Part shown: positions 4,419 to 64,000 of the stretch, one piece after another | Numbering within the stretch: the stretch's first letter is position 1 | Layout of the letters: each line of letters begins with the position of its first letter | Assembly: GCF_002201475.1 (NCBI RefSeq) | Contig: NZ_CP021422.1 | Location: 1,674,001 to 1,738,000, forward strand | Length of the DNA: 64,000 nt | Reading direction: 5' to 3' | Source: Acutalibacter muris | Lineage (GTDB): Bacteria > Bacillota > Clostridia > Oscillospirales > Acutalibacteraceae | Notes under the pieces: model-generated | Databases searched by the model: none | Told to the model about the DNA's origin: nothing | What the model saw: the letters and a program-made list of their open reading frames with translations, nothing else | Translations under genes and position numbers: made by a program

Positions 4419-4459
4419 ATATGGCTGTAAGCTTGCGAATAAGAGAAAGGGGTTTATTT

Positions 4460-6789: not shown

Positions 6790-6811
6790 GATATAACGGA
6801 GGAGGGGTTCT

Positions 6812-8071
6812 ATGTTTGAAAATGAGGAGAGCCGGGAGCGGGCGCTGCTGGTGTCCCTGGACACTGGGGAATACGATGCTGAAACCTCTTTAGCAGAGCT
6901 CTGCGAGCTTGTGGAGAGCGCCGGCGCGGACCCGGCCTTTACCCTTATGCAGAAGCGCCCTGCGCCGGACGCGGCCACCTGTATTGGCTCGGGCATGGCA
7001 CAGGAGGCGGCGGAGCTGATAGAGCGGGAGGGACTGGACCTGTGCATATTTGACCGGGAACTGAGCCCCACCCAGATACGGAACTTAGAGGAGCTTTTCG
7101 GCGTTAGGGTAATTGACCGCACCATGCTTATACTGGATATCTTCGCCCAGCGGGCAAAGAGCCGGGAGGGCAAGCTCCAGGTGGAGCTTGCCCAGCTTCG
7201 CTATATGCTGCCAAGGCTCACGGGCCGGGGCACTGCCCTCTCAAGGCTGGGCGGCGGCATCGGCACCAGGGGCCCCGGCGAGACAAAGCTTGAGACGGAC
7301 CGGCGGCATATCCGGCGAAGGATAGGGAGCCTGAAGGAGCAGTTGGAGGAGGCCGAAGCCGCCCGGGCGGTAACAGGAAAGCGCAGGAGGAAGAACTCGG
7401 TGATCTCTGTGGCTCTGGTGGGCTATACAAACGCCGGCAAGAGTACGCTTATGAACCGTCTGACCCAGGCGGGGGTATTGGCCGAGGATAAGCTGTTTGC
7501 CACCCTTGACCCGACCGCCAGGGCCTTAAAGCTGCCCTGCGGGAAGACGGTCATGCTGATAGATACTGTCGGCCTTATACGGAGACTGCCGCATCATCTG
7601 GTCGAGGCCTTCAAGTCCACCCTTGAGCAGGCGGCCACGGCTGATATACTTTTGAATATCTGCGACGCGTCAAGCGATGAAGCCCGGGAGCACCTACAGG
7701 TGACAGAGGAACTGCTCCAGAGCCTTGGCTCAGGGGAGCGCCCGGTGATACCTGTGCTCAATAAATGGGACGCGGTTGGGGACGAGGAGCTGGCCCCGCG
7801 CCTGCCGGGGGCGGTGCGCATCAGCGCGCTGAACGGCGAGGGGATTGACCGGCTGCTGGAAGCGGTGGAGGAGAACCTGCCCGAGAAAACCTTTGACGTA
7901 GAGCTGCTGCTGCCCTTTGCAAAGAGCGGCCTTGCCGCAAGGCTCCGGGACGAGGGCGCACTGCTTAGCGAGGAATATGTAGAGGAGGGACTGAGAATTA
8001 CTGCCAGGGTTGATGGGCGGCTCTACGGCCTTGTAAAGGAGTATGACCTCAACCCAAGAGAGGAGGAGTGA
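6812..8071 (+). CDS. hflX: GTPase HflX
   Basis: A 419-residue ribosome-associated GTPase that, in characterised bacteria, splits stalled or hibernating 70S ribosomes. The N-terminal HflX domain carries IGSGMAQE, then the glycine-rich linker SRLGGGIGTRGPGETKLE, followed by a coiled region and the G domain with GYTNAGKST (P-loop near residue 204), DTVGLIRRLPHHLVEAF (G3 and switch) and NKWD (G4). GGAGGAGG precedes ATG 6812. It sits 22 bases after the exporter gene and just before a small uncharacterised gene. Assignment is firm. Confidence 0.95.
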   Translation: MFENEESRERALLVSLDTGEYDAETSLAELCELVESAGADPAFTLMQKRPAPDAATCIGSGMAQEAAELIEREGLDLCIFDRELSPTQIRNLEELFGVRVIDRTMLILDIFAQRAKSREGKLQVELAQLRYMLPRLTGRGTALSRLGGGIGTRGPGETKLETDRRHIRRRIGSLKEQLEEAEAARAVTGKRRRKNSVISVALVGYTNAGKSTLMNRLTQAGVLAEDKLFATLDPTARALKLPCGKTVMLIDTVGLIRRLPHHLVEAFKSTLEQAATADILLNICDASSDEAREHLQVTEELLQSLGSGERPVIPVLNKWDAVGDEELAPRLPGAVRISALNGEGIDRLLEAVEENLPEKTFDVELLLPFAKSGLAARLRDEGALLSEEYVEEGLRITARVDGRLYGLVKEYDLNPREEE

Positions 8072-8073
8072 GT

Positions 8074-8643
8074 ATGTTTTACCATGCAAGCCCTACGCAC
8101 TGTATTGAGGTGCTGGAGCCGAGAGTTTCTAATCATGGAAAGCCGCTGGTATATCTGTCGAAAAAGAGGGAGAACGTGCTGCCGTACCTTTCCAACGCTG
8201 TGGAAAAGTATTGCAGAGAGACCGGCTTTCCCCATGAGGGGCCCTGGTATAAGTGGGGCAGCTACGGCTTTTTTGAGGGAAAGCTGCGCATTGACGAATA
8301 CTGGCCGAACGCACTTGAGGAGACCTATAAGGGAGTATCCGGCTATATCTACGCCGCCGAGACCGTGCCCGGGCGGGAGGAGCTGAAGGGCATCCCGGAC
8401 GCTGTGATAACCTCAGAGCCGGTACCGGTCACCGGCTGCGAGTACGTGCCGGACGCATACGAAGCCCTCCTTATCGCGGCGGAGCTGGGACAGATATTTA
8501 TACGCCGCTATGAGCAGCTGCCGGAGAAAATGCTGGCATGGATAGAAAGCTCTATCAAGCAGCAGTATGAGGCGGCGGATATCCCCACATACAAGCATTT
8601 TCTAAAGGGCAAGTTTCCCGAAATTACCGCCAGACTTGAATAA
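8074..8643 (+). CDS. Uncharacterised protein of 189 residues
   Basis: I do not recognise a characterised family. The start at ATG 8074 has AGGAGG seven bases upstream; a GTG two codons earlier is possible. The product is soluble with no signal peptide or membrane segment, rich in aromatic residues (FYHASPTHCIEVLEP near the N-terminus, WYKWGSYGFFEG mid-protein). The opening resembles small domains in which a FYHAS stretch precedes a statement of the residue's address, seen in some ADP-ribosyltransferase-like folds, but that is a weak impression. It follows hflX closely and ends at a strong hairpin. Confidence 0.75.
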   Translation: MFYHASPTHCIEVLEPRVSNHGKPLVYLSKKRENVLPYLSNAVEKYCRETGFPHEGPWYKWGSYGFFEGKLRIDEYWPNALEETYKGVSGYIYAAETVPGREELKGIPDAVITSEPVPVTGCEYVPDAYEALLIAAELGQIFIRRYEQLPEKMLAWIESSIKQQYEAADIPTYKHFLKGKFPEITARLE

Positions 8644-8655
8644 ATGTATGACAAA

Positions 8656-8696
8656 AGGTCCAAAATGTATAATTATTCATTTTGGACCTTGATTTT
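8656..8696 (+). terminator. Terminator hairpin after the uncharacterised gene
   Basis: AAGGTCCAAAATG pairs perfectly with CATTTTGGACCTT (13 bp) around an AT-rich loop, followed by GATTTTT. The same palindrome contains an ARG-box-like sequence, see the separate entry. Confidence 0.8.
8664..8681. promoter_or_regulatory. Candidate ARG box (ArgR/AhrC operator) upstream of argG
   Basis: The 18 bases AATGTATAATTATTCATT match the ARG-box pattern TNTGNATWWWWATNCANA at every defined position except the two ends. A weaker match lies at 8706-8723, 42 bp away (about four helical turns) and over the minus-10 element. Arginine operons are normally repressed by ArgR bound to paired boxes. No argR gene is in the window, so binding is inference. 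Confidence 0.55.
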
Positions 8697-8715
8697 TGGG
8701 ATTTTAGTGTATAAT
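8689..8715 (+). promoter_or_regulatory. Promoter of the arginine operon
   Basis: TATAAT at 8710-8715 is a perfect minus-10. The best minus-35 is TTGATT at 8689-8694 with a short 15-base spacer, so the minus-35 is weak or misplaced. It lies 40 bases before the argG start. Confidence 0.55.
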
Positions 8716-8754
8716 GATGTATGAAAGAAAACATAGAGGGAAGGAATGTCCGTT

Positions 8755-9981
<1,227 letters not shown>

Positions 9982-9996
9982 GGGGAGGCCTCCTAG

Positions 9997-10545
9997 ATGG
10001 AGCTGATAGATATATACGATAAAGACGGCAATAAGGCCGGCGCCGTTCGCGACAAAGAAGCGCCCCTTGGGCCGGGGGAGTACCGTATGGCTGTGGGTAT
10101 GTGGATAGTGGACAGGGGCGGCAGGATATTCCTCACCCGCCGGAGCATGGAAAAGAAGTACGCCCCCGGCAAGTGGGAGAACCCCGCCGGTCACGTGCAG
10201 GCGGGCGAGGACCCGGTCCACGCCGTTATTCGGGAGCTCTTTGAGGAGACCGGCCTCACTGTCCAGGAGGAGCAGATAACTCTCCTTGGCCGCTCCTGCA
10301 CTTGGCCGTACATCGGCCGGGACTTCGGGGTGCGCATGGACGTAGACTTGAACGATGTGCGTTTCCAGAAAGGCGAGACCTGCGACGCCAAATGGGTGAC
10401 CTTTGAGGAGTTCGCCGAAATGGCCCGGGCGGGGGAGTTTGCACCCTCCCTTACGGACCATATGCGGGACTATAGAGATGCGTTTCTGGACTTCACCGAA
10501 CACCCGGGCAGTACGGCTCTTGACTTCTTGACAGCGGAGGAATAA
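9997..10545 (+). CDS. Nudix hydrolase within the arginine operon
   Basis: A 182-residue Nudix protein, hydrolysing a nucleoside diphosphate linked to another moiety; substrate unknown. The Nudix box is complete: G-x5-E-x7-REL-x-EE-x-GL at about residues 65-87 (GHVQAGED through RELFEETGL). The N-terminal portion (ELIDIYDKDGNKAG) resembles the isopentenyl-diphosphate isomerase-like/YfcD type of Nudix proteins. It sits between argG and argH with a two-base gap to argH, so it is cotranscribed with arginine genes though no known arginine step needs it. Confidence 0.88.
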   Translation: MELIDIYDKDGNKAGAVRDKEAPLGPGEYRMAVGMWIVDRGGRIFLTRRSMEKKYAPGKWENPAGHVQAGEDPVHAVIRELFEETGLTVQEEQITLLGRSCTWPYIGRDFGVRMDVDLNDVRFQKGETCDAKWVTFEEFAEMARAGEFAPSLTDHMRDYRDAFLDFTEHPGSTALDFLTAEE

Positions 10546-10547
10546 AA

Positions 10548-11932
<1,385 letters not shown>

Positions 11933-11933
<1 letters not shown>

Positions 11934-12973
11934 TGAACAGAGTAAAGGTTGGAATTGTGGGGGCTACAGGTTATGCCGGGGTGGAGCTCTGCCGGCTGAT
12001 AATGGGCCATCCCCAGGCGGAACTGTCAGCTATAAGCTCGGTGAGCTTTGAGGGCAAAACCCTTTCGGAGGTGTACCCGGCATACTTCCATATGTGCGAC
12101 ATGATATGCGGAACCCAGGAGCAAGTGCTGGAAAAGAGCGAGGTTATTTTTGCCGCGCTGCCCCACGGGCTGTCCCAGGAGCTGGCGGCCCAGTGCGTGA
12201 AGGCCGGTAAGGCGTTCACAGACTTGGGGGCGGACTTCCGGCTTGAGAGCGAGGAGGAATACAAGGAGTGGTACGGCGGCAGCTTCACGGATAAGGCGCT
12301 GCACCAGGAGGCGGTGTACGGACTGCCGGAGCTTTTCCGGGAGCGGATAAGGGGTAAACGGCTCATAGCGAACCCCGGCTGCTATACCACAGCCGTGCCC
12401 CTGGCTCTAGCCCCGGCCTTGGAGGCGGGGCTAATACAGCCGGAGGGGATAATTGCAGACTGCAAGTCCGGCGTGACCGGCGCGGGGCGCAAGCCCACCC
12501 AGGGAAACCATTACCCGGAGCTGAACGAGGGCTTCACCGCCTATAAGGTCGCGGCCCACAGGCACACCCCGGAGATGGAGCAGACCCTTTCGCATATAGC
12601 CGGACAGAAGATAAAGCTGACCTTTGTGCCCCATCTGCTGCCCATAAACCGGGGAATATTGGCCACCTGCTACGCGAAGCTGGCTCCGGGCGCGGAGCTT
12701 GCCGCCATACGCAAAGCTTATGAAAATCGCTATGCCGGGGAGTTCTTCATTCGACTGCTGCCAGACGGACAGTGCGCAAATGTGAAGAATGTGCGCTGCA
12801 CAAACTTCTGTGACATATCCCTTTTTGCTGACTCGCGCACCGGCACCTTCATAGCTGTTTCGGCTATTGACAATATGGTGAAGGGCGCGGCGGGCCAGGC
12901 CATACAGAACATGAATCTTGCCCTGGGCATTGACGAGACTGCCGGGCTTAAGCTGGTACCGCCGGCGTTTTAA
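11933..12973 (+). CDS. argC: N-acetyl-gamma-glutamyl-phosphate reductase
   Basis: NADPH-dependent reduction of N-acetylglutamyl phosphate to the semialdehyde, third step of the acetylated ornithine route. The 346-residue protein begins with the Rossmann motif VGIVGATGYAGVELCRL and contains the catalytic cysteine in NPGCYTTA near residue 147, plus the HRHTPEMEQ segment around 200. It shares an overlapping stop/start with argH and is followed 22 bases later by argJ. Confidence 0.96.
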
Positions 12974-51831: not shown

Positions 51832-52659
51832 CTAGTCGCCAAAGGTCTCTCGGAAGGCTCTGGGCGGGCAGCCGTAGCGCTGGGTAAAGAGCCTGTAAAA
51901 GTGGCTCTGGCTGTTGAAGCCGCACTGAGCGCCAACCTCGATCACCGGCAGATCCTGGGTGAGCAGCAGCTGCGCCGCATAGCTAAGGCGTTTTGCGTTG
52001 ATGAACTCTGTGGGCGTAACCCCCAGATACCGGCGGAAGGAGCGGGTTAGGTGCTCCTGGGAGAGCCTTGCTAGTGTCAGCATATGGGAAAGTCCCGGGA
52101 CAAAGTGCTCCGGGCTTTCCATCTGATCCACGAGCTGAGCCAACCAGGAGGGAAGGCGGTCGGTTTCCTCTGGCATTGCAAGGAACAGCCCTACTAGGTA
52201 TGGAAACACGCTGAGCATATGCCGGTAGGAGGTCTCGTTCTCCGAAATGGTTTGATTTTCCAGGAGTTTCTTCTGGGCGTCCCAAAGCGCTGGGCCGGAG
52301 AGCACCCGCAAGGGGGATATCGGGGGAGCATCAAACCTGGCCCTGTCTATCTCCAGATATTCGCACAGTCGGAGAAAGACCGGGCAGGGGATACCGATGT
52401 TGATTATCTCGAAGTCGCTGTTATTGAGGAACTCGTACCTATGGGTGTCCGTGGGACGGATCAGCACTAGGGAACCCGCGGTCAGCAGCTGGGTCTGACC
52501 GTTGATTACGTGGACCGCGCTGCCCTGAGGGACCAGAAACAGCTCATAAAAGTCGTGGGTGTGCAGCCGGTAGGTGGAGTGTACACCGTACTGGTGCAGG
52601 GCCTTGCCACCTGTCCGGCGCATTTCCTCCTCCGTCTGGCGCAGCAGGACCGCCTCCAT
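51832..52659 (-). CDS. AraC-family transcriptional regulator with N-terminal cupin domain
   Basis: A 275-residue regulator. The N-terminal half is a cupin-like sensor: THDFYELFLVPQG, LLTAGSLVLIRPTDTHRYEF. The C-terminal two helix-turn-helix motifs read LARLSQEHLTRSFRRYLGVTPTEFINAKRL and IEVGAQCGFNSQSHFYRLFTQRYGCPP. ATG 52659 has AAGGAGG upstream; the longer in-frame start lacks a site. It is transcribed divergently from the glycyl radical enzyme gene across 124 bases, so that gene is the likely target, activated by a small carbohydrate-type ligand. Ligand and operator are unknown. Confidence 0.9.
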   Translation of the reverse strand: MEAVLLRQTEEEMRRTGGKALHQYGVHSTYRLHTHDFYELFLVPQGSAVHVINGQTQLLTAGSLVLIRPTDTHRYEFLNNSDFEIINIGIPCPVFLRLCEYLEIDRARFDAPPISPLRVLSGPALWDAQKKLLENQTISENETSYRHMLSVFPYLVGLFLAMPEETDRLPSWLAQLVDQMESPEHFVPGLSHMLTLARLSQEHLTRSFRRYLGVTPTEFINAKRLSYAAQLLLTQDLPVIEVGAQCGFNSQSHFYRLFTQRYGCPPRAFRETFGD

Positions 52660-52783
52660 AAAACCGCCTCCTTTTTGGTTTATCCCCATTATATCGTTCG
52701 GAGGAGGAAAGCGCAAGAGAAAAATCAATAAACGAGAACTTTGGAAAGAAATTATACTGAAAATTCAGAAAGGAAGTTATGCT

Positions 52784-55033
52784 ATGAGCCGAACTGATTT
52801 ACAGAAGCTTCGGGAGGTTCTGGAATTTACACGCATCTACCAGGAAAACAGCGGGGATATCTATTTGAGAGAGGCCCGCTGCTTAGACTACCAACTGGAG
52901 CATATCCTGGTGCCTTTGGACGAAGAGGCGGGAATTGCCGGACGTTATGACCATGGCTTTGTTGGATTCAGCTCCCAGACTGGGGGCTACTCTGTCTTGG
53001 GTGCCGGGTACACCTACTACTTTAAGGAGTTTGAGTTCGTAAACGCCCTGCAGCGTTGTGCCGGGGAACTGACTGCCTCCGAGAACTATGCCCTGCAGGC
53101 AGCCCAAGCCTTCTGGAAGGAGGAGAATACCTCCAGAAAGCTGGACCTGGCCTTTGCCCGCCGGTATGGTTATGTCCCGGGTAAGGGCTATCCTGCCCCG
53201 GGCGTGGGAAATTGCGACTGCCGGGTGGCGGGGACCAACCTTGACTTCCACAAGCTTGTGGACCTTGGTTTTGACGGCCTTGAAAAGGAGATTGAACAGA
53301 AGATAAAGGAAAACGGAGACTCCAGCTTCTATGAAGCTCTTAAGCTCTGGATCGGGAGCCTGCAAAAAGCCTGTGAGCGCTACCGCCGCCAGGCCCTGGA
53401 GCTGGCGGCCCACAGCACCTCCAAGGAGTCCAGACGGCGGTTCCTGGATTTAGCGGGGGCTTTGGAGCACCTCCAGCACCAGCCTCCTCAGAGTTTCCTG
53501 GAGGGCGTGCAGCTTATGTGGATCTACTCCGTAAGCTGTGATTTGATGAACTACGGCCGTATGGACGACTATCTGGGTCCGCTCTACGCCGGGGACCTAG
53601 ATGCCGGACGGCTTACGGAGGAGGAGGGCGTGCAGATTATCCTATACTTATATAAGCACTTTTTGGAGATAAACAAGATCCACGACTGCCGTGTGATTGT
53701 GGGAGGCGTAGGCCGCCGGCATCCCCGGGAGGCGGACAGGCTGGCCGTTGCCATTATGGAGGCGACCCGGCGCTTCCGGGAGGCGGTGCCCCAGCTGACC
53801 CTGCGGTACTATACCGGCATGAGCGAAGCGGTGTTCCATAAGGCCATGGAGGTGAACGCCGAAGGGGTCACCTTCCCCATTATTTACTCTGACGACACCA
53901 ACGTGCCCGCGGTACAGCAGGTATATGGGGTCGGCAGGGAGGAGGCAGAGCAGTATGTGCCCTTTGGCTGCGGGGAATACGTGCTGGCAGGGTACAGCGT
54001 GGGCACCCCCAACAACGGCATCAATGCCCTGAAGGCTCTGGATCTGGCCCTGCATAACGGGCGGGACTCATATCACAACGTCCTATGTGGGCCTCGAACC
54101 GGGGAGCTCTCAGAGCTTGACGGCTTCGAGAAGCTCTATGAGGCGGTTCTCAATCAGCTTAAGCCGGTAATGGAGCGATTTGCTGAGCATAAGTACCTCA
54201 ACTATATAGTCGCCGGAGAGAACGCTCCCTATCTGCATCTGAGCCTGCTGCTGCACGACTGTGTGGAGACTGGAAAGCCGGTCTTTGAAGGAGGTGTACG
54301 TTACCTGAATGCTTCCAGCGAGACCTTTGGAGTAATTAGCTGTGCGGACAGCCTTACAGCCATTCGGAAACTAGTGTATGAGGAGAAACGCCTGAGCTTA
54401 GAGGAACTGGTGGAGGTCCTGGACCAAAACTTTGAAGGCAGGGAGGAGATACGCCGGCTCTGCCTGGAAGCGCCCAAATACGGCAACGACGACGACATTG
54501 CCGACAGCATGGCCCAGCGGCTTTTCAGCGACATGGGAGATATCACCTTAGAGGCAGGGAAGAAGGCAGGACTGCATCGGTACAATATTGTCAGCGTTAA
54601 CAACTCCATGAGCGCTGAATGGGGCAATTTCTGCTCCGCCTCCGCCTGCGGACGGAAAAAAGGCGATCCCATGGCCAACGCCAACGGCCCCTCCATCGGC
54701 GCGGACAAATGCGGTATTACGGCGCTTCTCAACTCTATGTCTAAATTTGATAACACAAAGCATGTGGGAGTCATCAACAACGTGCGCTTTACCAAAGAGC
54801 TCTTCACCCGGTCCGGCGACAAGGTGGCGGCGGTGCTCAAGGCCTTCTACCAGAACGGCGGGGTTCAGACCAACCTGTGCGTGGTGGGCCGGGAGGACCT
54901 GGAAAACGCTATGGAGCACCCGGAAAAGTACCAGAATCTTATGGTACGCATCGGCGGCTTCAGCGCCCGGTTTGTTACCCTAAACCCCATTGTGCAGCGT
55001 GAGATATTGGAGAGGACCACCTATGACGCGTGA
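52784..55033 (+). CDS. Glycyl radical enzyme of the pyruvate formate-lyase/diol dehydratase superfamily
   Basis: A 749-residue oxygen-sensitive radical enzyme. The catalytic cysteine is in FGCGEYV (Cys396), followed two residues later by Glu398, as in the dehydratase/lyase clades rather than the Cys-Cys of pyruvate formate-lyase. The radical glycine is Gly725 in VRIGGFSARF, 24 residues from the end. ATG 52784 (MSRTDLQKLREVLEF) has AGGAAG upstream. The activase gene overlaps its end by 11 bases. No microcompartment or acetyl-CoA genes are near. Neighbours are a GH28-like enzyme and an oligosaccharide transporter, so the substrate may come from plant polysaccharides; this is inference. The exact reaction cannot be assigned. 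Confidence 0.9.
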   Translation: MSRTDLQKLREVLEFTRIYQENSGDIYLREARCLDYQLEHILVPLDEEAGIAGRYDHGFVGFSSQTGGYSVLGAGYTYYFKEFEFVNALQRCAGELTASENYALQAAQAFWKEENTSRKLDLAFARRYGYVPGKGYPAPGVGNCDCRVAGTNLDFHKLVDLGFDGLEKEIEQKIKENGDSSFYEALKLWIGSLQKACERYRRQALELAAHSTSKESRRRFLDLAGALEHLQHQPPQSFLEGVQLMWIYSVSCDLMNYGRMDDYLGPLYAGDLDAGRLTEEEGVQIILYLYKHFLEINKIHDCRVIVGGVGRRHPREADRLAVAIMEATRRFREAVPQLTLRYYTGMSEAVFHKAMEVNAEGVTFPIIYSDDTNVPAVQQVYGVGREEAEQYVPFGCGEYVLAGYSVGTPNNGINALKALDLALHNGRDSYHNVLCGPRTGELSELDGFEKLYEAVLNQLKPVMERFAEHKYLNYIVAGENAPYLHLSLLLHDCVETGKPVFEGGVRYLNASSETFGVISCADSLTAIRKLVYEEKRLSLEELVEVLDQNFEGREEIRRLCLEAPKYGNDDDIADSMAQRLFSDMGDITLEAGKKAGLHRYNIVSVNNSMSAEWGNFCSASACGRKKGDPMANANGPSIGADKCGITALLNSMSKFDNTKHVGVINNVRFTKELFTRSGDKVAAVLKAFYQNGGVQTNLCVVGREDLENAMEHPEKYQNLMVRIGGFSARFVTLNPIVQREILERTTYDA

Positions 55034-55910
55034 AGAAAAGGCCCTGATTTTCGATGTCCAGCGCTTCTGTGTACACGATGGTCCGGGCATTCGCAGCACG
55101 GTATTTTTCAAAGGCTGCAATATGCGCTGTGCCTGGTGCCACAACCCTGAGAGCTTCTCACAAAGGCCGGAGCTACTCTTTCGCCCGGAGAAATGCACCG
55201 CCTGCGGGGCCTGTGAAGCCTGCCCTTCGGGGGCGCACCGAAGGGAGAACGGCTCTCACAGCTTTCATCGTGAGAACTGTTCTGGCTGCGGAGTCTGTGC
55301 CAGTCTCTGTCCAAATGGGGCTTTGGAGCTATCCGGCCGGGAGATGACCGTAGAAGAGGTCATGGAGGAGCTTCGAAAGGACGATAAATACTATGCCGCC
55401 TCCGGCGGCGGGGTCACGCTCTCCGGGGGAGAGGCCTCCATCTGGTTTAATTTTGTTCGGGAGCTGCTGGACGCCTGTAAGTCTCAGGGGTTTCATACGG
55501 CACTGGAAACCAACGGCCTTATCTCTGCAGAGCGCTTGGAAGCCCTGATTCCCAGGACAGATCTGTTTCTCTTTGACTGCAAGCACACGGACCCAGAGCC
55601 CCATCTTCACTGGACAGGTGCTCCTCTCCAGCCGGTACTGGACAGCTTGCAGGCTTTGGACCGGGCCGGGGCGAAGGTTATCCTACGCTGTCCAATAATC
55701 CCCGGGGTGAACGACGGTGAGGCCCATTTTGCGGCGCTTCGGGATATCCGGGCAAAGTATGCCTCAATTCAGCAGGTAGAGGTCATGGCCTATCATGACG
55801 TCGGCCGGGGCAAGTGGCAGGCGCTGGGGCGGTCCTACGCTTTTGAGGATCTAAAGACGGTCCCGCCGGACCAGAAGCGCCGCTGGCAGGAGCAGTTAAG
55901 TCAACTATGA
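55023..55910 (+). CDS. Glycyl radical enzyme activating enzyme
   Basis: Radical-SAM protein that abstracts hydrogen from the partner enzyme's glycine. The 295-residue protein has the CxxxCxxC cluster motif in GCNMRCAWCHNPE near residue 31, the inserted two-cluster ferredoxin domain (CTACGACEACP and CSGCGVCASLCP, about residues 58-105) that marks dehydratase-type activases and is missing in PflA, then GGVTLSGGE and the C-terminal barrel. ATG 55023 lies inside the end of the radical enzyme gene, implying coupled translation and a dedicated pair. Confidence 0.94.
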   Translation: MTREEKALIFDVQRFCVHDGPGIRSTVFFKGCNMRCAWCHNPESFSQRPELLFRPEKCTACGACEACPSGAHRRENGSHSFHRENCSGCGVCASLCPNGALELSGREMTVEEVMEELRKDDKYYAASGGGVTLSGGEASIWFNFVRELLDACKSQGFHTALETNGLISAERLEALIPRTDLFLFDCKHTDPEPHLHWTGAPLQPVLDSLQALDRAGAKVILRCPIIPGVNDGEAHFAALRDIRAKYASIQQVEVMAYHDVGRGKWQALGRSYAFEDLKTVPPDQKRRWQEQLSQL

Positions 55911-55913
55911 GTA

Positions 55914-55948
55914 AAACGGACGCGGCCATTAAGGCTGCGTCCGTTTCC
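55914..55948. terminator. Bidirectional terminator between convergent operons
   Basis: AACGGACGCGGCC pairs with GGCTGCGTCCGTT (one wobble), with T-rich flanks on both strands (TTTCC on plus, TTTTAC on minus). It separates the activase gene from the leftward sugar operon. Confidence 0.75.
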
Positions 55949-55953
55949 TCCGC

Positions 55954-56790
55954 TTAGAGCTTCACCCATTCGTCTGGCTGAACAGAGGCTTTCAGCAAAG
56001 CTTCCCGGGTGGCAATTACGGCAATGGTGTCCTCGTGAGAGACCGGTGGATCTTCCCCCAGAAAGAACCGGGCCATCTCCTTCATGAACCTGTGGTAATA
56101 GTCAGAGACGATTTCTATGCGCTGGGTGGAGGCGTCCGTCTTGTCCAAGGTCATGGCGAAGGGACAGTCCCAGCCGTGGTGGGAGAAGTGAGAGAGCCTT
56201 CCGTCGGCAAATTCCAGCACCCCGGCGGGCAGGGATTGGGTGCCGGTAAATTTCACCCGCTTCACCGCCCTGCCCATCAGAGCTAGGATAGGCTCTATCT
56301 GGTGGATGGCGTAGTTATCCAGGGGACCGGGGCCCTCGCTAACCAGCCCGGCCAGCCGGGCACGGTCCACCGGCTCTAGCTCCTCCGCAAAGCGCAGGGC
56401 GGAGGCGGAGAAGCAAGGGGTGTCGTTTCTTTCGGCAATGTCAAAGAGCTCCTGGGCCTCACGCTTGGAGTTTGCGAAGGTCTTGTCCACATACACCCGC
56501 TTGCCACTCTCTAAAGGCAGGCGGCAGAGCTCAGGATGCATCTCAGGGTTATCAGGGGACAGCACATTCAGACAGTCGCTCCTCTCAATGAGCTCCTCAA
56601 TGCTCCCCACCAGCTCCATGCCGTGCTTCTCGCACCACTCCTCGCTTGTCATGCCGGTGATGGGCGAGGTTATCTTCCCATAGGCGTACCTGACCTCCAG
56701 CTCGCCCTTCGAGGCGTCCTTGAGCCACTGAGGGTAATTATTGGCGTGGTACTCATCCAGATAGTAGTCAATGAATCCAACTGTTTTCAT
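55954..56790 (-). CDS. Gfo/Idh/MocA-like oxidoreductase, atypical and short
   Basis: A 278-residue protein distantly like NAD(P)-dependent sugar oxidoreductases. It starts MKTVGFIDYYLDEYHANNYPQWL, lacking the usual GxGxxG of the Rossmann fold. The next elements are family-like: CLNVLSPDNPEMHPELC, GKRVYVDKTFANS (position of the EKP lysine) and a C-terminal alpha/beta portion (GVLEFADGRLSHFSHHGWDCPF). It is shorter than the typical 330-380. It ends the transporter-GH28 operon, with start ATG 56790 preceded by AGGAGA. It may oxidise or epimerise a sugar released from the imported oligosaccharide; the missing motif leaves cofactor use open. Confidence 0.75.
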   Translation of the reverse strand: MKTVGFIDYYLDEYHANNYPQWLKDASKGELEVRYAYGKITSPITGMTSEEWCEKHGMELVGSIEELIERSDCLNVLSPDNPEMHPELCRLPLESGKRVYVDKTFANSKREAQELFDIAERNDTPCFSASALRFAEELEPVDRARLAGLVSEGPGPLDNYAIHQIEPILALMGRAVKRVKFTGTQSLPAGVLEFADGRLSHFSHHGWDCPFAMTLDKTDASTQRIEIVSDYYHRFMKEMARFFLGEDPPVSHEDTIAVIATREALLKASVQPDEWVKL

Positions 56791-56806
56791 AATAAAGCGT
56801 CTCCTA

Positions 56807-58099
56807 TTACTCTACGAGAATTTTCTGCTCTGTTCCATGGAAGGGCAGCACGCGGACCTTCTCAAGGCTCAACCCTCCGGCCGATTTTACGTATACCCCT
56901 GTATTTTCCGGCACTTCGCATATGCAGGGCGACGGCGCGATATCAAAGGTGTGCCCCTTGAGGGTAAGATTCTCCGAATCCTTCATCTGTACGGTGATGT
57001 CCCTAAGGAGGACATTTTCAAAGTTATCCCCTGTGCCCACCGCACCAGCGGCGTTTTCACAGGTACAGAACGCATTTTGGACAGTAATATTCCTGAAGTT
57101 TGCAGGAGTATCCCGATGTGGGTTCTGCTCGGGAGGAATATGGGAGTCGTGCTCCACGCCCATAAAGAAGATGGGTTCGCCGTTGCCCCACCAGTTGCCT
57201 GCCTGTATCCTGGTGTCGATAAGCAGATTTGAGGCCCGAACATTTTCAACAAGGCCGCCCTTGTCGTTGCACATAAAGGTGAGCCCGCGGTTGCTGCCTT
57301 TGATTATAATATTGTTAATGACCACATTGCGGACATGGCTGTAAATATACCCCAGCACGAGGGCCTTGGAGCAGGAGCGTAGGATACAGTCTGATATGAC
57401 CAGGTTCTCACAGGGCTTCGCCCAGTTGGTGATTCCTGAGACGGCAATACAGTCATCGCCGCTGGAGATATTGCAGCCTGAGATGATCACATCGTCACAG
57501 CTGGAAATATGTATCCCGTCGTCGTTTGGCACCCTAAGGTTGGTGTCGATGTTCATCCCGGTAAGCTTTACGTTTACGCACTCAGCGACGGTTATAGTCC
57601 AGCAGGGAGCGTCCAGCACGGTGACATCGCGCATGGTCAGCTTTTTTACCTTGTAGAAAAAGATGGACTGGGTAGGTCGCCATTCCCGCTCAACGGTGCA
57701 TTCCTCAAGCTGGCTTTGGGTCATCTCAACCCGGCTTTCGGGTATGATCGGGCGGGAAAAGTCGAAGAAGGACGAGCCGTTAAGGTCAATAACGCCGTCT
57801 CCGTCTATTACAACATCTTCGCCTTCGAGACACACTATCAACGCCTGCAGATCGCCCAGCTCATTATGGTGAAAGGGCATTATTGGGTAGTCCTCCCGGT
57901 TAGGCGAGCCTTTGATCACAGCGCCCTTCTCCAAATGGAGGGACACTCCCTGCAGATCAATGGTGCCGGTAAGGAAACCTCCGGCGGGCACCAGCACGGC
58001 CTCGCCGCTGGCCTTAGCTGCGGCTATGGCTTTGCAAAAGCTGCCGGTATTTAGAGTCAGACCGTCGCCTGAGGCTCCATAGTCCAAAATATTTATCAT
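56807..58099 (-). CDS. GH28-like parallel beta-helix protein, probably intracellular
   Basis: A 430-residue pectinase-type beta-helix protein. It opens MINILDYGASGDGLTLNT, characteristic of GH28 polygalacturonases and related rhamnogalacturonan enzymes, and shows VPNDDGIHISSC and SSGDDCIAVSG, the positions of the conserved aspartates (NxD and DD motifs). The third motif expected, GHG with a histidine, is instead ALVLGYIYSH, and the RIK-type end is replaced by GSNRGLTF. No signal peptide, so it acts in the cytoplasm on imported oligomers. ATG 58099 has AGGAGA upstream; the longer frame start is rejected. It follows the binding-protein gene with an attenuating hairpin. Confidence 0.82.
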   Translation of the reverse strand: MINILDYGASGDGLTLNTGSFCKAIAAAKASGEAVLVPAGGFLTGTIDLQGVSLHLEKGAVIKGSPNREDYPIMPFHHNELGDLQALIVCLEGEDVVIDGDGVIDLNGSSFFDFSRPIIPESRVEMTQSQLEECTVEREWRPTQSIFFYKVKKLTMRDVTVLDAPCWTITVAECVNVKLTGMNIDTNLRVPNDDGIHISSCDDVIISGCNISSGDDCIAVSGITNWAKPCENLVISDCILRSCSKALVLGYIYSHVRNVVINNIIIKGSNRGLTFMCNDKGGLVENVRASNLLIDTRIQAGNWWGNGEPIFFMGVEHDSHIPPEQNPHRDTPANFRNITVQNAFCTCENAAGAVGTGDNFENVLLRDITVQMKDSENLTLKGHTFDIAPSPCICEVPENTGVYVKSAGGLSLEKVRVLPFHGTEQKILVE

Positions 58100-58123
58100 A
58101 CTGAATTTTCTCCTGGGAAAAAT

Positions 58124-58153
58124 AATCAGAACCCGGGGCAAAAGTCCCGGGCC
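58124..58153 (-). terminator. Attenuator-like hairpin between binding protein and GH28 genes
   Basis: Reverse strand CCCGGG-acttttgc-CCCGGG stem followed by TTCTGATTATTTTT. It would let the binding-protein gene be expressed more strongly than the enzymes behind it. Confidence 0.5.
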
Positions 58154-58173
58154 CTGGTCAATGAATAATCGAA

Positions 58174-59820
58174 TTACTTTGTGGAGCCCTTAGCGATCTC
58201 CATAACGTCGGGGTTGTCCTCCAGATACTTGGCGAACTGGGTGCGGTACTCCTCCAGGTACTTGTCAAGGCCGGCGGCCTTCAGCTTCTCGATAGCCGCG
58301 TCGATGTTCTCCTCATAGGGGACCATGCCTATCTTGATGGGGTAGATGGAGGCAATAATCTCGGTTTGCAGGTTGGTAAGCTCCGTAGTCACATTGCTGG
58401 AATCGAACAGGAAACCGGCAATGGGGGAGACCACGTAGTTATCGGCCTTATAGTTCATATAGTCCAGATATTCGTCGGTGGTGGTGGCCGCATCATAGCG
58501 CATATATGGCATATAACCGGTCATCCAGGTGTCCAGCTGGTACAGAGCGTCGCCATTCTCATTCTTCATCTCGTCGGTGCGGGAGAACATACCGGTTCCC
58601 TCATCGGTGAAGTATTTGCCCTCGGTGCCCAGGTGGAACAGGTCGTGATTCTCCTGGCTGCTATAGAGCCAATCAAGGAACTTGAGACCGGACTCGGGAT
58701 TCTCGGAGGTGGAGGAGATGGCGTTCAGATTCTGCACGAAGGTGTAGACCATTTCGGGCTTCTCAGGGCACATCTTCACCCAGTCGGCAGTGACGTCCTT
58801 AAGGTCGGTGTTCTGCATGATTATCTTCGCCTCGGAGGGGTCAAAGGTCTGGGAGGGAAGGAAGGCGCCCAGCTTGGCCTCGTCGTACATAGCGGAGTGG
58901 TCGATGTTCAGCACGTCGGGGTTCACAAGACCCTCCTGGTACATCTTGTAGTAGGTCTCGCAGTCCTTCTTGAACTCCTCGCTCTCATAGAAGGAATCGA
59001 TAGTGCCGTCCTGGCGGGCGAGAATTATGCCCAGACTGTTCTCAACATAGAAGGGATAGGTATCATAGGTCCTGTGCAGCCAGTGGGCGGTGTCCTGGTT
59101 CTGGTGGAACCAGTTGTAGGCTTTGATGCCGGTTTCCTCAAGGATATAGTCCTGACTTTTCTTCATCAGGTCCAGCACGTCCTCCACACTGTCGGCGGGG
59201 AACTCCTCATAACCAACCTTTTTCATAACGTCGGTACGCAGGTTCATGTAGGACATGGTGTTCTCAAAGCTCCTCCAGGAGCAGGGTACAGCGTAGTGGT
59301 CGCCGGCGTAGACAGCGCCCAGCCACTCGTTCTCGGTAAAGCGGCCCACCAGGTCGGGATACTTCTCCAGCAGGTCGTCCAGAGGAATAATAGCGCCCAT
59401 ACCCGCGATAGAGGACAGGTTTTTCACGTCCTGCATCACGTGCAGCAGCTCGAACTCCTCGCCGGTGGTAAGCATCAGGTTCAGCTTTTCAGCATAGGAA
59501 TCCCAGGGGATGCGCTGGACGGAAACCTCGATGTTCACTCCGTCGGCCTTCAGCTTTTCATTGACGGCGGCGATGCCCTGCTCGTACTCGTCCGGCAGGT
59601 TGCCGGGCTGCACGATACGCATGGGATGGATCTCCCCGTCGTCGCCGCTGGTGGAGGCTTCGGAGCTTTCCGGGGCTTCCTCGGAGCTTTCGCCACTGGC
59701 GGTAGAGCTTTCAGGTGTGGAGCTGCCGGAACTACCGCTGTCGTTGCCGCAGGCGGCGAACAGGGACAGCACCAGAGCCATCGCCAGCAACAGAGCGGCG
59801 ATCTTTTTCAGATTCTTCAT
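58174..59820 (-). CDS. LplA-type extracellular solute-binding lipoprotein
   Basis: A 548-residue binding protein for oligosaccharides. Signal peptide MKNLKKIAALLLAMALVLSLFAACG with lipidated Cys24, then an acidic serine-rich spacer (residues 25-65) and a two-lobe binding domain. Features such as GEEFELLHVMQDVKNLSSIAGMGAIIPLDDLL are typical of LplA-like proteins. Two ATG codons lie close together; the second at 59820 has GAAGGAG in place. It is the last transporter gene in an operon LplB-YtcP-LplA. No ATPase is in the operon, so a shared MsmX-type ATPase elsewhere is expected. Confidence 0.9.
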   Translation of the reverse strand: MKNLKKIAALLLAMALVLSLFAACGNDSGSSGSSTPESSTASGESSEEAPESSEASTSGDDGEIHPMRIVQPGNLPDEYEQGIAAVNEKLKADGVNIEVSVQRIPWDSYAEKLNLMLTTGEEFELLHVMQDVKNLSSIAGMGAIIPLDDLLEKYPDLVGRFTENEWLGAVYAGDHYAVPCSWRSFENTMSYMNLRTDVMKKVGYEEFPADSVEDVLDLMKKSQDYILEETGIKAYNWFHQNQDTAHWLHRTYDTYPFYVENSLGIILARQDGTIDSFYESEEFKKDCETYYKMYQEGLVNPDVLNIDHSAMYDEAKLGAFLPSQTFDPSEAKIIMQNTDLKDVTADWVKMCPEKPEMVYTFVQNLNAISSTSENPESGLKFLDWLYSSQENHDLFHLGTEGKYFTDEGTGMFSRTDEMKNENGDALYQLDTWMTGYMPYMRYDAATTTDEYLDYMNYKADNYVVSPIAGFLFDSSNVTTELTNLQTEIIASIYPIKIGMVPYEENIDAAIEKLKAAGLDKYLEEYRTQFAKYLEDNPDVMEIAKGSTK

Positions 59821-59889
59821 TTCTTTCGTCTCCTTCATATAGGATTTTTATTGTTTCAACAGGCAGGGCCTGATAAAACCAGGATAAAT

Positions 59890-60807
59890 TCAGCCCTTCA
59901 CCGCGCCGATTACCATGCCCTTCACAAAGTATTTCTGGAGGAAGGGGTAGAGGAGAATGATAGGCCCCATGGTGATAACGGAGGTAGCCATCTTGAAGCT
60001 CTCCTTGGGGGGAGCGCTCCGGGTCGCGCCCTGGGCCACCTTCTGCATGGCGGTAATTTCGGACTGTATTTTTAACAGCATCATCTGGAGGTTATAATAC
60101 TTCTGGTCGTTGATGAGCATGACGCAGTTGAAGTAGTTGTTCCAGTAGCCGATGGCATAGAACAGGGCTATGGTAGCCAGCACCGGCATACAAAGGGGAA
60201 GGTAGATGGTAAAGGCGATCCGCACTTCTCCTGCTCCGTCAATTCGGGCCGACTCATTTAATGCGTCCGGGATGCCCCGCACGAAGTTGCGGACCAGGAA
60301 CATATTGAAGGGGGAGAACAGAAGGGAGGGCACTATCAATGCCCAGATATTATCGTAGCAGCCTACCATTTTTGAGATCATGTACCAGGGCACCATGCCC
60401 GCGGAAAAGACCATCGTGATGTAGAAATACAGGGACAGCCCGTTGCGGTAGCGGCACTGCTTATTTGCAAGAGTATAACCCGCGCCAAAGGTGATAAGCG
60501 ACGCTATCAGGGTGCCCACCACCGTTGCCAGGCCGGTAACCTGATAGGCCCTGGGCACATTGGAGGATTTGGAGAAGAGCCGCTGGTAAGCGTCAAGGGA
60601 CCATTGGGCGGGGAAGAAGGAATAGCCGTTTATGGTGATGGACTTCTCCTCTGTAAAAGATACGATAATTACGAGGATAAAGGGTATCAGACAGACCAGG
60701 GCGAATAGTATCACCAGGAAATAAATAAGAAACTGCGCCAGCTTGTCGCTACTGCTGGTCTTTATTTTGTTCCGGGCGCTGAGTGCGCCGGCTGGATTAG
60801 CGGACAT
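59890..60807 (-). CDS. Carbohydrate ABC transporter permease, YtcP/LplC type
   Basis: A 305-residue membrane protein with about six segments. The EAA loop, which docks the ATPase, reads LNESARIDGAGEVRIAFTIYLPLCMP near residue 195. The end YPFLQKYFVKGMVIGAVKG is the family's. The first 25 residues are polar and the first hydrophobic stretch follows (LAQFLIYFLVILFALVCLIPF). It pairs with the LplB permease. Confidence 0.92.
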   Translation of the reverse strand: MSANPAGALSARNKIKTSSSDKLAQFLIYFLVILFALVCLIPFILVIIVSFTEEKSITINGYSFFPAQWSLDAYQRLFSKSSNVPRAYQVTGLATVVGTLIASLITFGAGYTLANKQCRYRNGLSLYFYITMVFSAGMVPWYMISKMVGCYDNIWALIVPSLLFSPFNMFLVRNFVRGIPDALNESARIDGAGEVRIAFTIYLPLCMPVLATIALFYAIGYWNNYFNCVMLINDQKYYNLQMMLLKIQSEITAMQKVAQGATRSAPPKESFKMATSVITMGPIILLYPFLQKYFVKGMVIGAVKG

Positions 60808-60925
60808 GGTGCAAAACTCCTTTCAAGCTTTCATTTTTCATGGATATATGCGGGAGCTGCCGGCAGCTCTGGGAAAGTGAAACCGCACGGTTTCACTTAT
60901 TGTTCTCTGTGTATAGGTAATTAGT

Positions 60926-61873
60926 TTAGAACAGCGCCCCGTCAGGGAAGTGCCGGCGCACAATCCAGTTTGAGGTGAACACCAGAATGAAGCCCACAAT
61001 GGACTGGTACAGGCCAACGGCCATGGAGAGGCTGGGGTCGCCGGTATTTTTGAAGGTGCGGTACACATAGGTGTCGATAACCTCCGCGATGGGCATAAGG
61101 GAGCTGTTGTCCCGGATTATGGCGTACATCATGCCGAAGTCGCCGTAGAAGATGCGCCCCACGGACATCAGCGTTAAAATGCAGATAGTGGGCATCAAAA
61201 GTGGCAGGGTAATATAACGAATACGCTTCCAGCGGGTAGCTCCGTCTATATAGGCGGCCTCATAGAGCCCCTCGTCAATGCCGGTAATGGCCGCCAGATA
61301 CACGATGGCGTTATAGCCGGTGGTCTTCCAGATGTTCAAAATCAGCAGGATAGGGTACCAATAGCCGGGATTTGCATAGAAATTGACCTTCTGTCCGCCC
61401 ATGCTGACGATGATGTTGTTGATAAGGCCGTTGTCCGTACCCAAGATGCCCTGGAGCATATAGCTGACAATTACCCAGGAGATGAAGTAAGGGAACAGCA
61501 TAAAGGACTGACTGACCTTCAAAAGGCGCTTGGCGTGCACCTCGTTGAGGGCGATGGCCAGCGCCACGGCGCATACGGTGCCCACGGCCAGGAAGAGCAC
61601 GTTTATGACCAAAGTATTTCGGGTGATGGTCCAGGCCCAGCTGGACTTGAAGAAATACTCAAAGTTCCTCAGACCTACAAACTCGCTGAAGATGCCGGTT
61701 TTATAGTTGAATTTCTCAAAGGCGATGGCCATATACGGCAGGGACATATAGGAGAATACAAAAGTATACAGCATGGCCGGTAGAACCAGCAGATATAAAA
61801 ACTTGTTTCTCCAGAGCTCTTTGAGGGGGTTTATGCGCCGGCGGGGCGCGGCGACTGTTTGGTTCCTCATCAT
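60926..61873 (-). CDS. Sugar ABC transporter permease, LplB type
   Basis: A 315-residue permease with about six membrane segments. It starts MMRNQTVAAPRRRINPLKELWRN, then FLYLLVLPAMLYTFVFSYMSL and the LplB hallmark YMAIAFEKFNYKTGIF; the EAA loop is GLYEAAYIDGATRWKRIRYITLPLLMP near residue 215. The start has AAGGA upstream. It is the first gene of the leftward operon, under the promoter at 61947-61975. The 118 bases before the next permease hold two hairpins. Confidence 0.92.
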   Translation of the reverse strand: MMRNQTVAAPRRRINPLKELWRNKFLYLLVLPAMLYTFVFSYMSLPYMAIAFEKFNYKTGIFSEFVGLRNFEYFFKSSWAWTITRNTLVINVLFLAVGTVCAVALAIALNEVHAKRLLKVSQSFMLFPYFISWVIVSYMLQGILGTDNGLINNIIVSMGGQKVNFYANPGYWYPILLILNIWKTTGYNAIVYLAAITGIDEGLYEAAYIDGATRWKRIRYITLPLLMPTICILTLMSVGRIFYGDFGMMYAIIRDNSSLMPIAEVIDTYVYRTFKNTGDPSLSMAVGLYQSIVGFILVFTSNWIVRRHFPDGALF

Positions 61874-61975: not shown

Positions 61976-62138
61976 CTTCTATTATCCGCTTTTTCTCCAT
62001 TTATTTTCACTGATGCGAAAAAATTGCAGATTTTTTATACTCAGTTTTATGAGGAAATCTGCATTTTTTAACACTGGGAGAGCGTGCACTACAAAAATTA
62101 TTCCATAATTGAAAAAAGTGAGGCTTTGCTGTCCTCAC

Positions 62139-62166
62139 TTGACTTTTGTCAGAAAATTGTTATACT
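62139..62166 (+). promoter_or_regulatory. Promoter of the membrane sensor regulator
   Basis: TTGACT (62139-62144) and TATACT (62161-62166), spacer 16; 44 bases before ATG 62210. An AGTGAGG/CCTCACT hairpin (about 62116-62140) ends at this minus-35. The rest of the 336-base divergent region is AT-rich without other elements I can name. Confidence 0.6.
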
Positions 62167-62209
62167 TGTTTGTAGAACACTGGCAGCAGGGACGTTTGTG
62201 GAGGGTCAA

Positions 62210-64000
62210 ATGATAAAGAAGCTTCAAAACAGGGAAAAACTCAGCACCACATATCTGTGGTCAATTTTTATAGTCGTTATCATTATCGACTTTCTCATTA
62301 CTGTTGCGCTGTTTTCCATCTATTGCGCCGCTCAGATCTCCACAGCTGCCAAAAACTCAGTCAGTCAGCTTGAACAGGTACGCACCTCCACAGATATCCT
62401 CTTTGAGTCCATGGAGGCTGTAGTAAACCAGCTGGCCAACGACGCGGACACGGCCACATTTCTGCTTGGCGAGTCCACCAACCGCCTTCGGGAAGCGGCG
62501 GTTGGCCTGAAAATACGTACCCTCTGTACTGCCAATCCATATCTTCGCTTTATTACATTATATAATGATACCAGTAAGCGCTTTGTTTCCAGCGGCTATG
62601 CGGGAGATGACATTAAGTTGAATGCCCAGGAGTTTTACGACCGCCTGGGGGATCAACCCTATGTCTGTTTTTTCAGGCCCATTGGCGACGCCTATAATGT
62701 GCAGCTCAACAAAAAGGCTATGGCCTATACTTTTGTGTTCCGTATAAACCTCAAACCCAATTCCGGTTCCTCGGATCTGGTCATTATTGATGTCAATGAG
62801 AGCTATTTCAACAACGCTCTGGCGCCAATCCGCGTGGAGGAACATGAGCAGCGGGTGCTGCTTCAGGGAACGGAGCAGGAGTTTATCGCTGAGATGTCTG
62901 CCCTGCCGGCCCAGGAGCTTTTCTCTGTGGCTGCGGGCGGCAGTGGCGCGGACTATCCGGAGGCTAAGTCAATGGAAAGCTCCGGCTCTATGTTCTTCCA
63001 TACGCCGGGGCAGTTTTGGTTCACTACATATGTCCGAAGCGCAAAAGTCGGGTGGACCTTTTATAATATGCTTCCATATCAGGTGGTACTAGGGGCCTTA
63101 GTGACACCGGCTATTCTGACGGTAACCATGACCCTTCTGACGCTGGCCTTTGGCTATGTGCTGTCCCGATGGCTCAGTACACATCTGTATCAGCCCATAA
63201 AGGCCCTGTATGAAAATTATGTGGACAGCGCTGGGGAGAAAAAGGGGAATGAACTGGAACTTTTGAGCCAGGCGTTCTCTGATATGTATTTGAAGGCGGA
63301 CGAGTTGGAGAGAGGACTGATTGCCTCGTTCCATGAATCTAAAAATTTTTACCTACGGGCCTTGCTCTCTGGAGAAAGGGAGCGGGTGCAGGGTTCTCTG
63401 TCTACCTACCGGCGGCTGGGGATCAATCTTAACGCCCCATACTATGAGGTGGTCGTGCTGGAATGTGTTCCCCAGGAGGACATGAGCAGAGAAGTAGGCG
63501 GGAAGGAAAACCTATTTATCCCATACTATGCCTTGGAAAATATTACCAGGGAACTGATGGGTCCTGCCCTGGGGGTGGAGTTTATGAGGATCGGTGAAAA
63601 CCACTTTGCCGTGCTGCTGTATCTGGAGGAGCCCCAGCTTAACGACACTTTGCGCCAGGGGCTGGAGACTATCGTGGACCTGATGCCCAGGGAATTTCAT
63701 ATAGATACCAGTATTTGTGTGGGGCAGGTGGTGGATTCTTGGATGGACATCAATCTGGTATATGAGCAGGAGAAGATCGCCCTGCATTCCCGCACGGCCA
63801 GCCACTATGGACGGGTGTTCTTCGCGTGGGACGCCCCGGAGGCCATGAGCAGTGATTTGTACTACAGCGGTCTGCATACTCGCTTGGCGGATTGTGTGCG
63901 AAGCGGGGACCTGGAGGCCTGTGCCCGGGAGTTTGACCAGGCCCTGGCGGCTATGAAGGAGATCAGCTTCAAGTCAGCTCGTACCTATTTCCGGCATATT
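62210..64000 (+). CDS. Membrane-bound AraC/YesN-type transcriptional regulator with extracytoplasmic sensor, C-terminus beyond window
   Basis: The frame is open for 597 codons to the window end. It starts MIKKLQNREKLSTTYLWS (GGAGGG upstream), has membrane segment 1 near residues 18-43, an extracytoplasmic Cache-like sensor to about residue 290, and segment 2 near 291-320 (VVLGALVTPAILTVTMTLL). The following cytoplasmic part is that of AraC-type membrane regulators which sit beside LplA-LplB-YtcP operons. The DNA-binding end lies outside the window, so the family call rests on context and architecture. It is probably the sensor that switches on the divergent transporter operon. Confidence 0.8.
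   Translation, partial: MIKKLQNREKLSTTYLWSIFIVVIIIDFLITVALFSIYCAAQISTAAKNSVSQLEQVRTSTDILFESMEAVVNQLANDADTATFLLGESTNRLREAAVGLKIRTLCTANPYLRFITLYNDTSKRFVSSGYAGDDIKLNAQEFYDRLGDQPYVCFFRPIGDAYNVQLNKKAMAYTFVFRINLKPNSGSSDLVIIDVNESYFNNALAPIRVEEHEQRVLLQGTEQEFIAEMSALPAQELFSVAAGGSGADYPEAKSMESSGSMFFHTPGQFWFTTYVRSAKVGWTFYNMLPYQVVLGALVTPAILTVTMTLLTLAFGYVLSRWLSTHLYQPIKALYENYVDSAGEKKGNELELLSQAFSDMYLKADELERGLIASFHESKNFYLRALLSGERERVQGSLSTYRRLGINLNAPYYEVVVLECVPQEDMSREVGGKENLFIPYYALENITRELMGPALGVEFMRIGENHFAVLLYLEEPQLNDTLRQGLETIVDLMPREFHIDTSICVGQVVDSWMDINLVYEQEKIALHSRTASHYGRVFFAWDAPEAMSSDLYYSGLHTRLADCVRSGDLEACAREFDQALAAMKEISFKSARTYFRHI

Follow-up and report, generated by a model that had tools for sequence, protein, structure and literature searches.

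The 64,000-nt stretch of Acutalibacter muris DNA analysed here (the window) contains a gene for a glycyl radical enzyme (GRE) which, judged from its sequence, we assign with moderate confidence to an uncharacterised eliminase subfamily that is found across many phyla and is specialised for carbohydrate-derived substrates. This assignment derives mainly from the count of sugar-gene neighbourhoods across the family, the residues of the predicted pocket, and the presence of an orthologous transporter component in 7/16 related genomes. The enzyme is probably a radical dehydratase or lyase whose substrate, a carbohydrate-derived polyol or sugar, loses a hydroxyl group, as suggested by the frequent sugar-import and sugar-cleaving neighbours of its relatives. 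A first-pass annotation had held that a carbohydrate-derived substrate would represent a new reaction class, which is too strong, as anhydrohexitol phosphates are already known substrates of YbiW and PflD from E. coli; since these two GREs use carbohydrate substrates, the novelty lies in a new subfamily with a probably new substrate, and not in a new kind of chemistry. GREs perform much of the difficult anaerobic chemistry of the gut, and so broad a family for which no described reaction was found represents a real gap; our literature search (titles and starts of abstracts, in part among the matches listed) gave no description of this GRE subfamily or its reaction.

Family membership and pocket residues

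The protein belongs to the GRE superfamily, with matches to PFL-like (345.7 bits) and Gly_radical (72.3 bits) that are both above the Pfam cut-off, and it carries the CXE Cys loop (C396-G-E398), a feature of GRE eliminases according to PMC8473560, and is thus predicted to be of the eliminase type. The residues Cys396, Glu398 and Gly725 named in the first-pass annotation were present and invariant in 12 aligned sequences, including that of the window. Comparison with NCBIfam left the protein under the cut-off of TIGR01774 (PFL2/glycerol-dehydratase subfamily, 334.3 bits, cut-off 678.2), and under those of the CutC, HypD, HpsG, HpfG, PflD (PRK09983), IAD, HPAD and PFL equivalogs (61.8–258.8 bits, cut-offs 994–1150). 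The best phmmer match among solved chains was CutC (233 bits); glycerol dehydratase of the C. butyricum type scored 214.8 bits, with its fold match tied with others, and IslA, BSS/MasD and the aryl decarboxylase GREs, none of which are rows in our trees, scored 124–195 bits. The predicted model (pLDDT 90.9) showed 17–26% identity by structural alignment to the solved PFL-like-type GREs listed.

Two phylogenetic trees were constructed. In a quick tree of 82 rows the GRE was located within a 58-row clade with an SH-aLRT support of 100 and a long stem, with long branches meeting and an odd letter composition flagged for some rows. In a careful tree of 31 rows, using a mixture model, 18 family rows were split from 8 reference rows at 100/100, with five unlabelled GREs on the reference side; L030 was flagged as a long row, and five rows for their unusual composition. 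The references were YbiW, a YbiW-like protein, PflD, a PflD-like protein, a GRE linked to a Pdu bacterial microcompartment (BMC) and named from its pdu gene context, HypD, a CutC equivalog (1603 bits to the CutC model) and the GRE nearest to CutC (782 bits, below cut-off), and the trees were without verified glycerol dehydratase, IslA, HpsG, BSS, HPAD or IAD rows. The clustering inside a characterised clade that would have counted against the first-pass annotation was not seen: the GRE stood apart from the YbiW, PflD, Pdu-BMC-linked, HypD and CutC rows, and membership in any characterised clade that could be tested here was ruled out by the NCBIfam scores and both trees, including the anhydrohexitol-phosphate clades of YbiW and PflD. 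Family records were labelled as Bacillota, Bacteroidota, Spirochaetota, Ignavibacteriota, Acidobacteriota, Chloroflexota, Verrucomicrobiota, Enterobacteriaceae and Vibrionaceae; a phylum-wide search added no further member, with at most two candidates per genome scored among the matches listed, and hence says little about rarity.

The catalytic residues were conserved throughout the alignment, with C and E of the CXE motif present in 83/83 family rows and 9/9 eliminase-type references, and Gly725 in 83/83 and 10/10, respectively. In contrast, position 301 is D, N or H in 82 of the 83 family rows versus F, Y, G or W in all ten references, R303 is found in 83/83 family rows versus 0/10 references, and E513 in 83/83 versus 0/9 references with a letter at that position. 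On this alignment, the family has its own predicted pocket signature, unlike that of the references.

Gene neighbourhoods and the importer

We searched the regions flanking the family GRE genes with a set of carbohydrate queries (sugar ABC transporter, ROK or FGGY kinase, phosphotransferase system (PTS), GH28, GH1, GH38 or GH42), and found matches in 32 of the 47 loci that extend for 5 kb or more to either side of the GRE. As the queries were drawn from the same loci, the count was repeated minus the query-donor loci, which gave sugar genes near the GRE in 25/40 loci versus 3/40 control stretches (20 kb each, taken from nine genomes of Bacillota, as against the many phyla spanned by the loci themselves), and 17 of the same 40 loci stayed positive when only genes <60% identical to a query were counted. 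The gene content differed between subgroups: Citrobacter, Buttiauxella, Pluralibacter and Vibrio form a PTS subgroup with a GntR-type gene, with a PTS gene within 3.3 kb of the GRE in eight enteric and Vibrio loci, several Clostridia have the GRE near GH38, D-lyxose isomerase and ROK-like genes, six further loci have it near GH42 and sugar ABC genes, and two have it near NanE and ROK (L045 and L125). At locus L053, where the GRE is 71% identical to that of the window, genes for a Gfo/Idh protein, a zinc alcohol dehydrogenase, a xylose-isomerase-like barrel, a fucose-isomerase-like protein, an FGGY kinase and a true DeoC (deoxyribose-phosphate aldolase) precede the GRE, with deoC 302 bases upstream. 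On a Chloroflexi contig (L104, not counted with the 47 loci owing to its short length) a deoC gene ends 13 bases upstream of the GRE; the two DeoC proteins scored 232 and 209 bits in NCBIfam (cut-off 117). Other DeoC matches were 5.1 kb from the family GRE and beside another GRE (L120), and 8.8 kb away (L079).

The solute-binding protein (SBP) encoded in the window is 67% identical to an SBP near the GRE of Scatolibacter rhodanostii (L056) and 52% identical to one adjoining the GRE of a metagenome-assembled genome (L059), both with a different gene order, and at all three loci no more than 3.2 kb separates the SBP gene from the GRE. In Scatolibacter, a Gfo/Idh-like protein 59% identical to that of the window is encoded directly before the GRE. 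Among the 16 genomes of the GRE subclade (five of which are also in our relatives set, as judged by matching places), an SBP orthologue of 56–80% identity was found in seven, a homologue of 33–34% in two, and none in seven. Of 345 genomes searched order-wide, two had an SBP orthologue, and these two were among the five with a close GRE; at most four SBP candidates per genome were scored among the matches listed, so that misses are possible. The carriers were the window's own genome and G309, in which the SBP is at the same place as in the L065 genome; the chance of this overlap is ~2e-4 with the window's genome and ~0.01 without it, assuming independent genomes, which genomes are not. Because one of the two carriers is the window's own genome, this co-occurrence is weaker than first judged. 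In the relatives set, an SBP of at least 80% identity was present in three genomes beyond the window's, two with the GRE (G005 and G015) and one without (G026).

GH28 orthologues of at least 47% identity were found in only 4/16 subclade genomes, each adjoining the SBP, with homologues of 36–44% in three more, so that GH28 could not be upheld generally as a constant partner of the GRE; a better partner is the ABC transporter, which offers a direct way to the substrate via the ligand of its SBP. The carbohydrate link proposed in the first-pass annotation is supported by the family-wide neighbourhoods, and the transporter partner by its co-occurrence, but the GH28/Lpl neighbours which clade members were expected to share were encountered less widely, with the orthologous transporter linked in the above three loci only, and with operon and GRE at separate loci in two close relatives. 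Two SBP operons differ in composition, with genes for DUF4127 (function unknown according to its Pfam listing), NanE and ROK replacing the Gfo/Idh-like gene in L170 (6053–9212), and GH28, DUF4127 and a NanE-like frame (by eye), with no Gfo/Idh-like gene, in L171 (12182–14656).

The activase gene directly follows the GRE in 57/80 testable loci and is present somewhere in the flanks in 72/81, while a divergent AraC homologue is located upstream of the GRE in 22/76 testable loci (window counted in the first and last of these numbers), and this AraC-GRE-activase arrangement exceeds chance. No activase match was found in the flanks examined of the GREs of L053 (9998–12244) and L059 (4572–6845), which presumably are served by an activase encoded elsewhere.

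Several observations weigh against a carbohydrate-specialised subfamily. Fifteen of the 40 non-donor loci had no match to any sugar query, and neither had the subclade loci L052, L060 (which has little downstream sequence), L062 and L065. Nine of the 16 subclade genomes lack a close SBP, either having the 33–34% homologue (G131, G132) or none (G119, G120, G124–G127, G133), and the order-wide overlap is reduced to a single genome when that of the window is removed. The relatives G005 and G015 have the whole operon, including GH28 and the regulator, but at another locus than the GRE, and in G026 (86% complete) the operon was without a GH28 match and no GRE was detected. DeoC was beside the GRE at two loci only, and with 1/47 versus 0/40 controls is not enriched, which weakened it as a family-wide partner. 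Finally, the pocket roles were read off the sequence alignment, without a ligand-bound model.

Layout of the locus and proposed reaction

The genes surrounding the GRE are listed in Table 1, and agree with the first-pass description of a dedicated activase with an extra ferredoxin domain, a cupin-AraC gene and a facing operon of GH28, Gfo/Idh-like and transporter genes, with no microcompartment.

Table 1. Features of the GRE locus, with positions in the window
Feature	Position	Strand	Basis and remarks
Cupin-AraC regulator	51832..52659	-	Pfam AraC_binding and HTH_18; divergent from GRE, spacing ~124 bases
Divergent intergenic region	52660..52783	.	Presumed promoter and operator, inferred from gene layout
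GRE, 749 aa	52784..55033	+	Pfam PFL-like and Gly_radical; trees; GCGEY Cys loop, RIGGFSAR Gly loop
Codons of Cys396-Gly397-Glu398 (CXE motif) in GRE	53969..53977	+	Family alignment
Codon of glycyl-radical residue Gly725	54956..54958	+	Family alignment
GRE activase	55023 (ATG)..55910	+	Radical SAM and 4Fe-4S domains (Pfam); TIGR02494
Gfo/Idh-like protein, 278 aa	55954..56790	-	PF01408 27.5 bits, cut-off 24 (weak match)
GH28 polygalacturonase-like hydrolase	56807..58141	-	Pfam GH28 76.7 bits, cut-off 22.9
SBP with DUF3502	58174..59838	-	Pfam
ABC permease, LplC-like	59890..60807	-	BPD_transp_1 (Pfam)
ABC permease, LplB-like	60926..61873	-	BPD_transp_1 (Pfam)
Large sensor-type regulator of ABC operon	62084..64000, runs off window	+	816-aa frame in L047; divergent from operon

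The activase start codon gives an 11-base overlap with the end of the GRE gene, and the activase contains a CX3CX2C radical SAM motif (by eye) and a ferredoxin-like insert; it passed TIGR02494 (326.5 bits, cut-off 174.35) and was under the cut-offs of all other activase models among the best 25 of 56 NCBIfam matches. The Gfo/Idh-GH28-SBP-permease operon is convergent with the GRE and activase genes, with a gap of 43 bases. No signal peptide was seen by eye in the GH28 protein, which scored 149 bits to NCBIfam PglB (cut-off 600), was under the cut-off of all five NCBIfam equivalogs matched, and had an exo-poly-alpha-D-galacturonosidase as its best match among solved structures (104 bits). The Gfo/Idh-like protein had no GxGxxG motif recognisable by eye and six solved-structure matches, all weak (best 30.2 bits), and we take a 1,5-anhydrofructose-reductase-like enzyme to be a candidate identity on the basis of a presumed family link. 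Homologues of this protein were found in 16/118 related genomes including the window's, 12 of which were without a detected subclade GRE. The sensor-type gene, which lies beyond the span covered by the first-pass annotation, matched a Cache domain with 28.3 bits, below the cut-off of 45, and in L154, L155, L156, L170, L171 and L173 a homologue is divergent from the same transporter.

A domain search gave no BMC matches in the window's genome, with a positive control in E. coli and Synechococcus that worked, while 3/16 subclade genomes (G123, G125, G127) did have BMC matches, on contigs which, judged by contig number and length, are other than that of the GRE. The window's genome encodes four GREs in all, and in the quick tree the three others (L002, L003, L004) were on long branches distant from the labelled references. 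Genome G092, from the same taxonomic order as the window's genome, has three GRE matches in ~18 kb of one contig (C12:27141-45053, part of which is in L044).

In the proposed reaction, the activase would install a radical on Gly725, which would oxidise Cys396 to a thiyl radical, and this may abstract a hydrogen from an OH-bearing carbon of the substrate, a sugar, polyol or anhydro-polyol that may be phosphorylated and would be held by the polar residues D301, R303 and R147. Glu398 would act as the base, and cleavage of the neighbouring C-O bond would give a deoxy-sugar carbonyl compound. In the window, the source of the substrate is probably an oligosaccharide imported by the SBP and permeases and cut in the cytoplasm by GH28, and in some relatives a deoxyribose-phosphate-type aldolase could plausibly split the product. 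DeoC requires a 2-deoxyaldose phosphate, as would be formed from an alditol phosphate by a diol-dehydratase-type reaction, and the two loci with an adjacent DeoC (L053 and L104) are suggestive of such a product. In a more specific version, which we consider speculative and quite unlikely as a whole, the substrates of the subfamily would be alditol phosphates, dehydrated at their terminal diol (or aldoses, dehydrated at the C1-C2 diol), and DeoC would convert the resulting 2-deoxyaldose phosphates to acetaldehyde and triose or tetrose phosphate. Import would be handled by a dedicated ABC system in the Oscillospiraceae of the gut, and by a PTS in vibrios and enteric bacteria. If true, this would offer a short radical-based route from sugars of the plant wall to C2 and C3 units, and deoxygenation of such sugars would be a carbohydrate fermentation route that, to our knowledge, does not feature in current gut models.

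Alternative explanations and known systems

The family may have reached the reaction of YbiW and PflD as a separate lineage, i.e. the conversion of a 1,5-anhydrohexitol (phosphate) by ring opening into a 1-deoxyketose, which we consider rather unlikely. In favour of this, Vibrio rhodolitus (L124, 9902–18083) has a family GRE, an Fsa (53% to FsaA) and a YbiW-like GRE (70% to YbiW) within 8 kb, the family GRE of L120 is near another YbiW-like GRE (37%), and the eight enteric and Vibrio loci have a PTS gene nearby, as does E. coli pflD. However, the family is a separate clade at 100/100, the His on the beta-1 strand of YbiW and PflD is not conserved in the family while R303 and E513 are new, and the window locus has no PTS, Fsa or sugar-kinase match. 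By eye, the YbiW-like GRE of L124 has an activase-like frame, as does each of the two GREs of L120, a Bacillota contig which encodes DeoC, the YbiW-like GRE and the family GRE in ~8 kb (4111–12220).

It is likewise doubtful that the GRE has no link to the GH28/Lpl operon, in which case AraC, GRE and activase would make up a cassette of their own for a common small metabolite, with the neighbouring genes there by coincidence. This would fit with the loci that match none of the sugar queries, the operon being unlinked to the GRE in G005 and G015, and L174, which has the cassette and no transporter match in 12.6 kb, but SBP orthologues do co-occur with the GRE, and L056 and L059 are two further linked loci with differing gene order. 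Very unlikely is a radical C-N lyase with a CutC-like reaction on an amino-sugar derivative such as an N-acetylmannosamine-type compound; NanE is encoded directly before the family GRE in L125 and L045, and the L170 and L171 operons described above include NanE or a NanE-like frame, yet no NanE was found in the window's genome (in a search without a positive control), and a NanE match was listed only in L125 among 80 loci and the window. Most improbable is a divergent form of glycerol or propanediol dehydratase, given 22–25% identity to these enzymes, a position outside the clade of the Pdu-BMC-linked propanediol GRE in both trees and the absence of BMC matches from the genome.

When the preferred carbohydrate-specialised eliminase is compared with known systems, the SBP, permeases and GH28 protein of the window can be likened to what we presume to be LplA/YtcQ-type (DUF3502) oligosaccharide ABC systems with an intracellular GH28 and pectin-type import, with which they share the DUF3502 SBP, two permeases, a membrane sensor-type regulator and GH28, and from which they differ by the nearby GRE and activase. 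The GRE itself resembles the glycerol and 1,2-propanediol dehydratases in fold and in a likely elimination of the vicinal-diol type, but differs from these in its pocket residues and in having neither a microcompartment nor a place in the Pdu-BMC-linked clade. CutC choline TMA-lyase is the top match among solved chains and shares the CXE motif, whereas the GRE reached 245 bits with the CutC model (cut-off 1050), and Asp216 of CutC and the Phe at 301 are not conserved. PMC8473560 and PMC7077986 describe HypD Arg156 and IslA Arg189 as a beta-1 Arg at R-x-x-G-x, and by eye R147 of the window GRE seems to match these, but it has Thr151 at the place of HypD His160 and IslA Gln193, and is outside the HypD lineage in the careful tree (which has no IslA row), with 245 bits to the HypD model versus a cut-off of 1100. 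Also among the closest known systems are YbiW and PflD, which according to PMC12441222 cleave 1,5-anhydroglucitol-6-phosphate (1,5-AG6P) and 1,5-anhydromannitol-6-phosphate (1,5-AM6P), in agreement with the titles of PDB entries 8id7 and 8id0. Like the window GRE, these are CXE GREs with an adjoining activase gene and a carbohydrate-derived substrate (presumed for the window GRE), and in E. coli each has an fsa aldolase gene nearby, with PTS genes beside pflD; the window GRE differs from both in its identity of 24–26% (structural alignment), its separate clade, its other beta-1 and beta-3 pocket residues, and a locus without a PTS or Fsa match.
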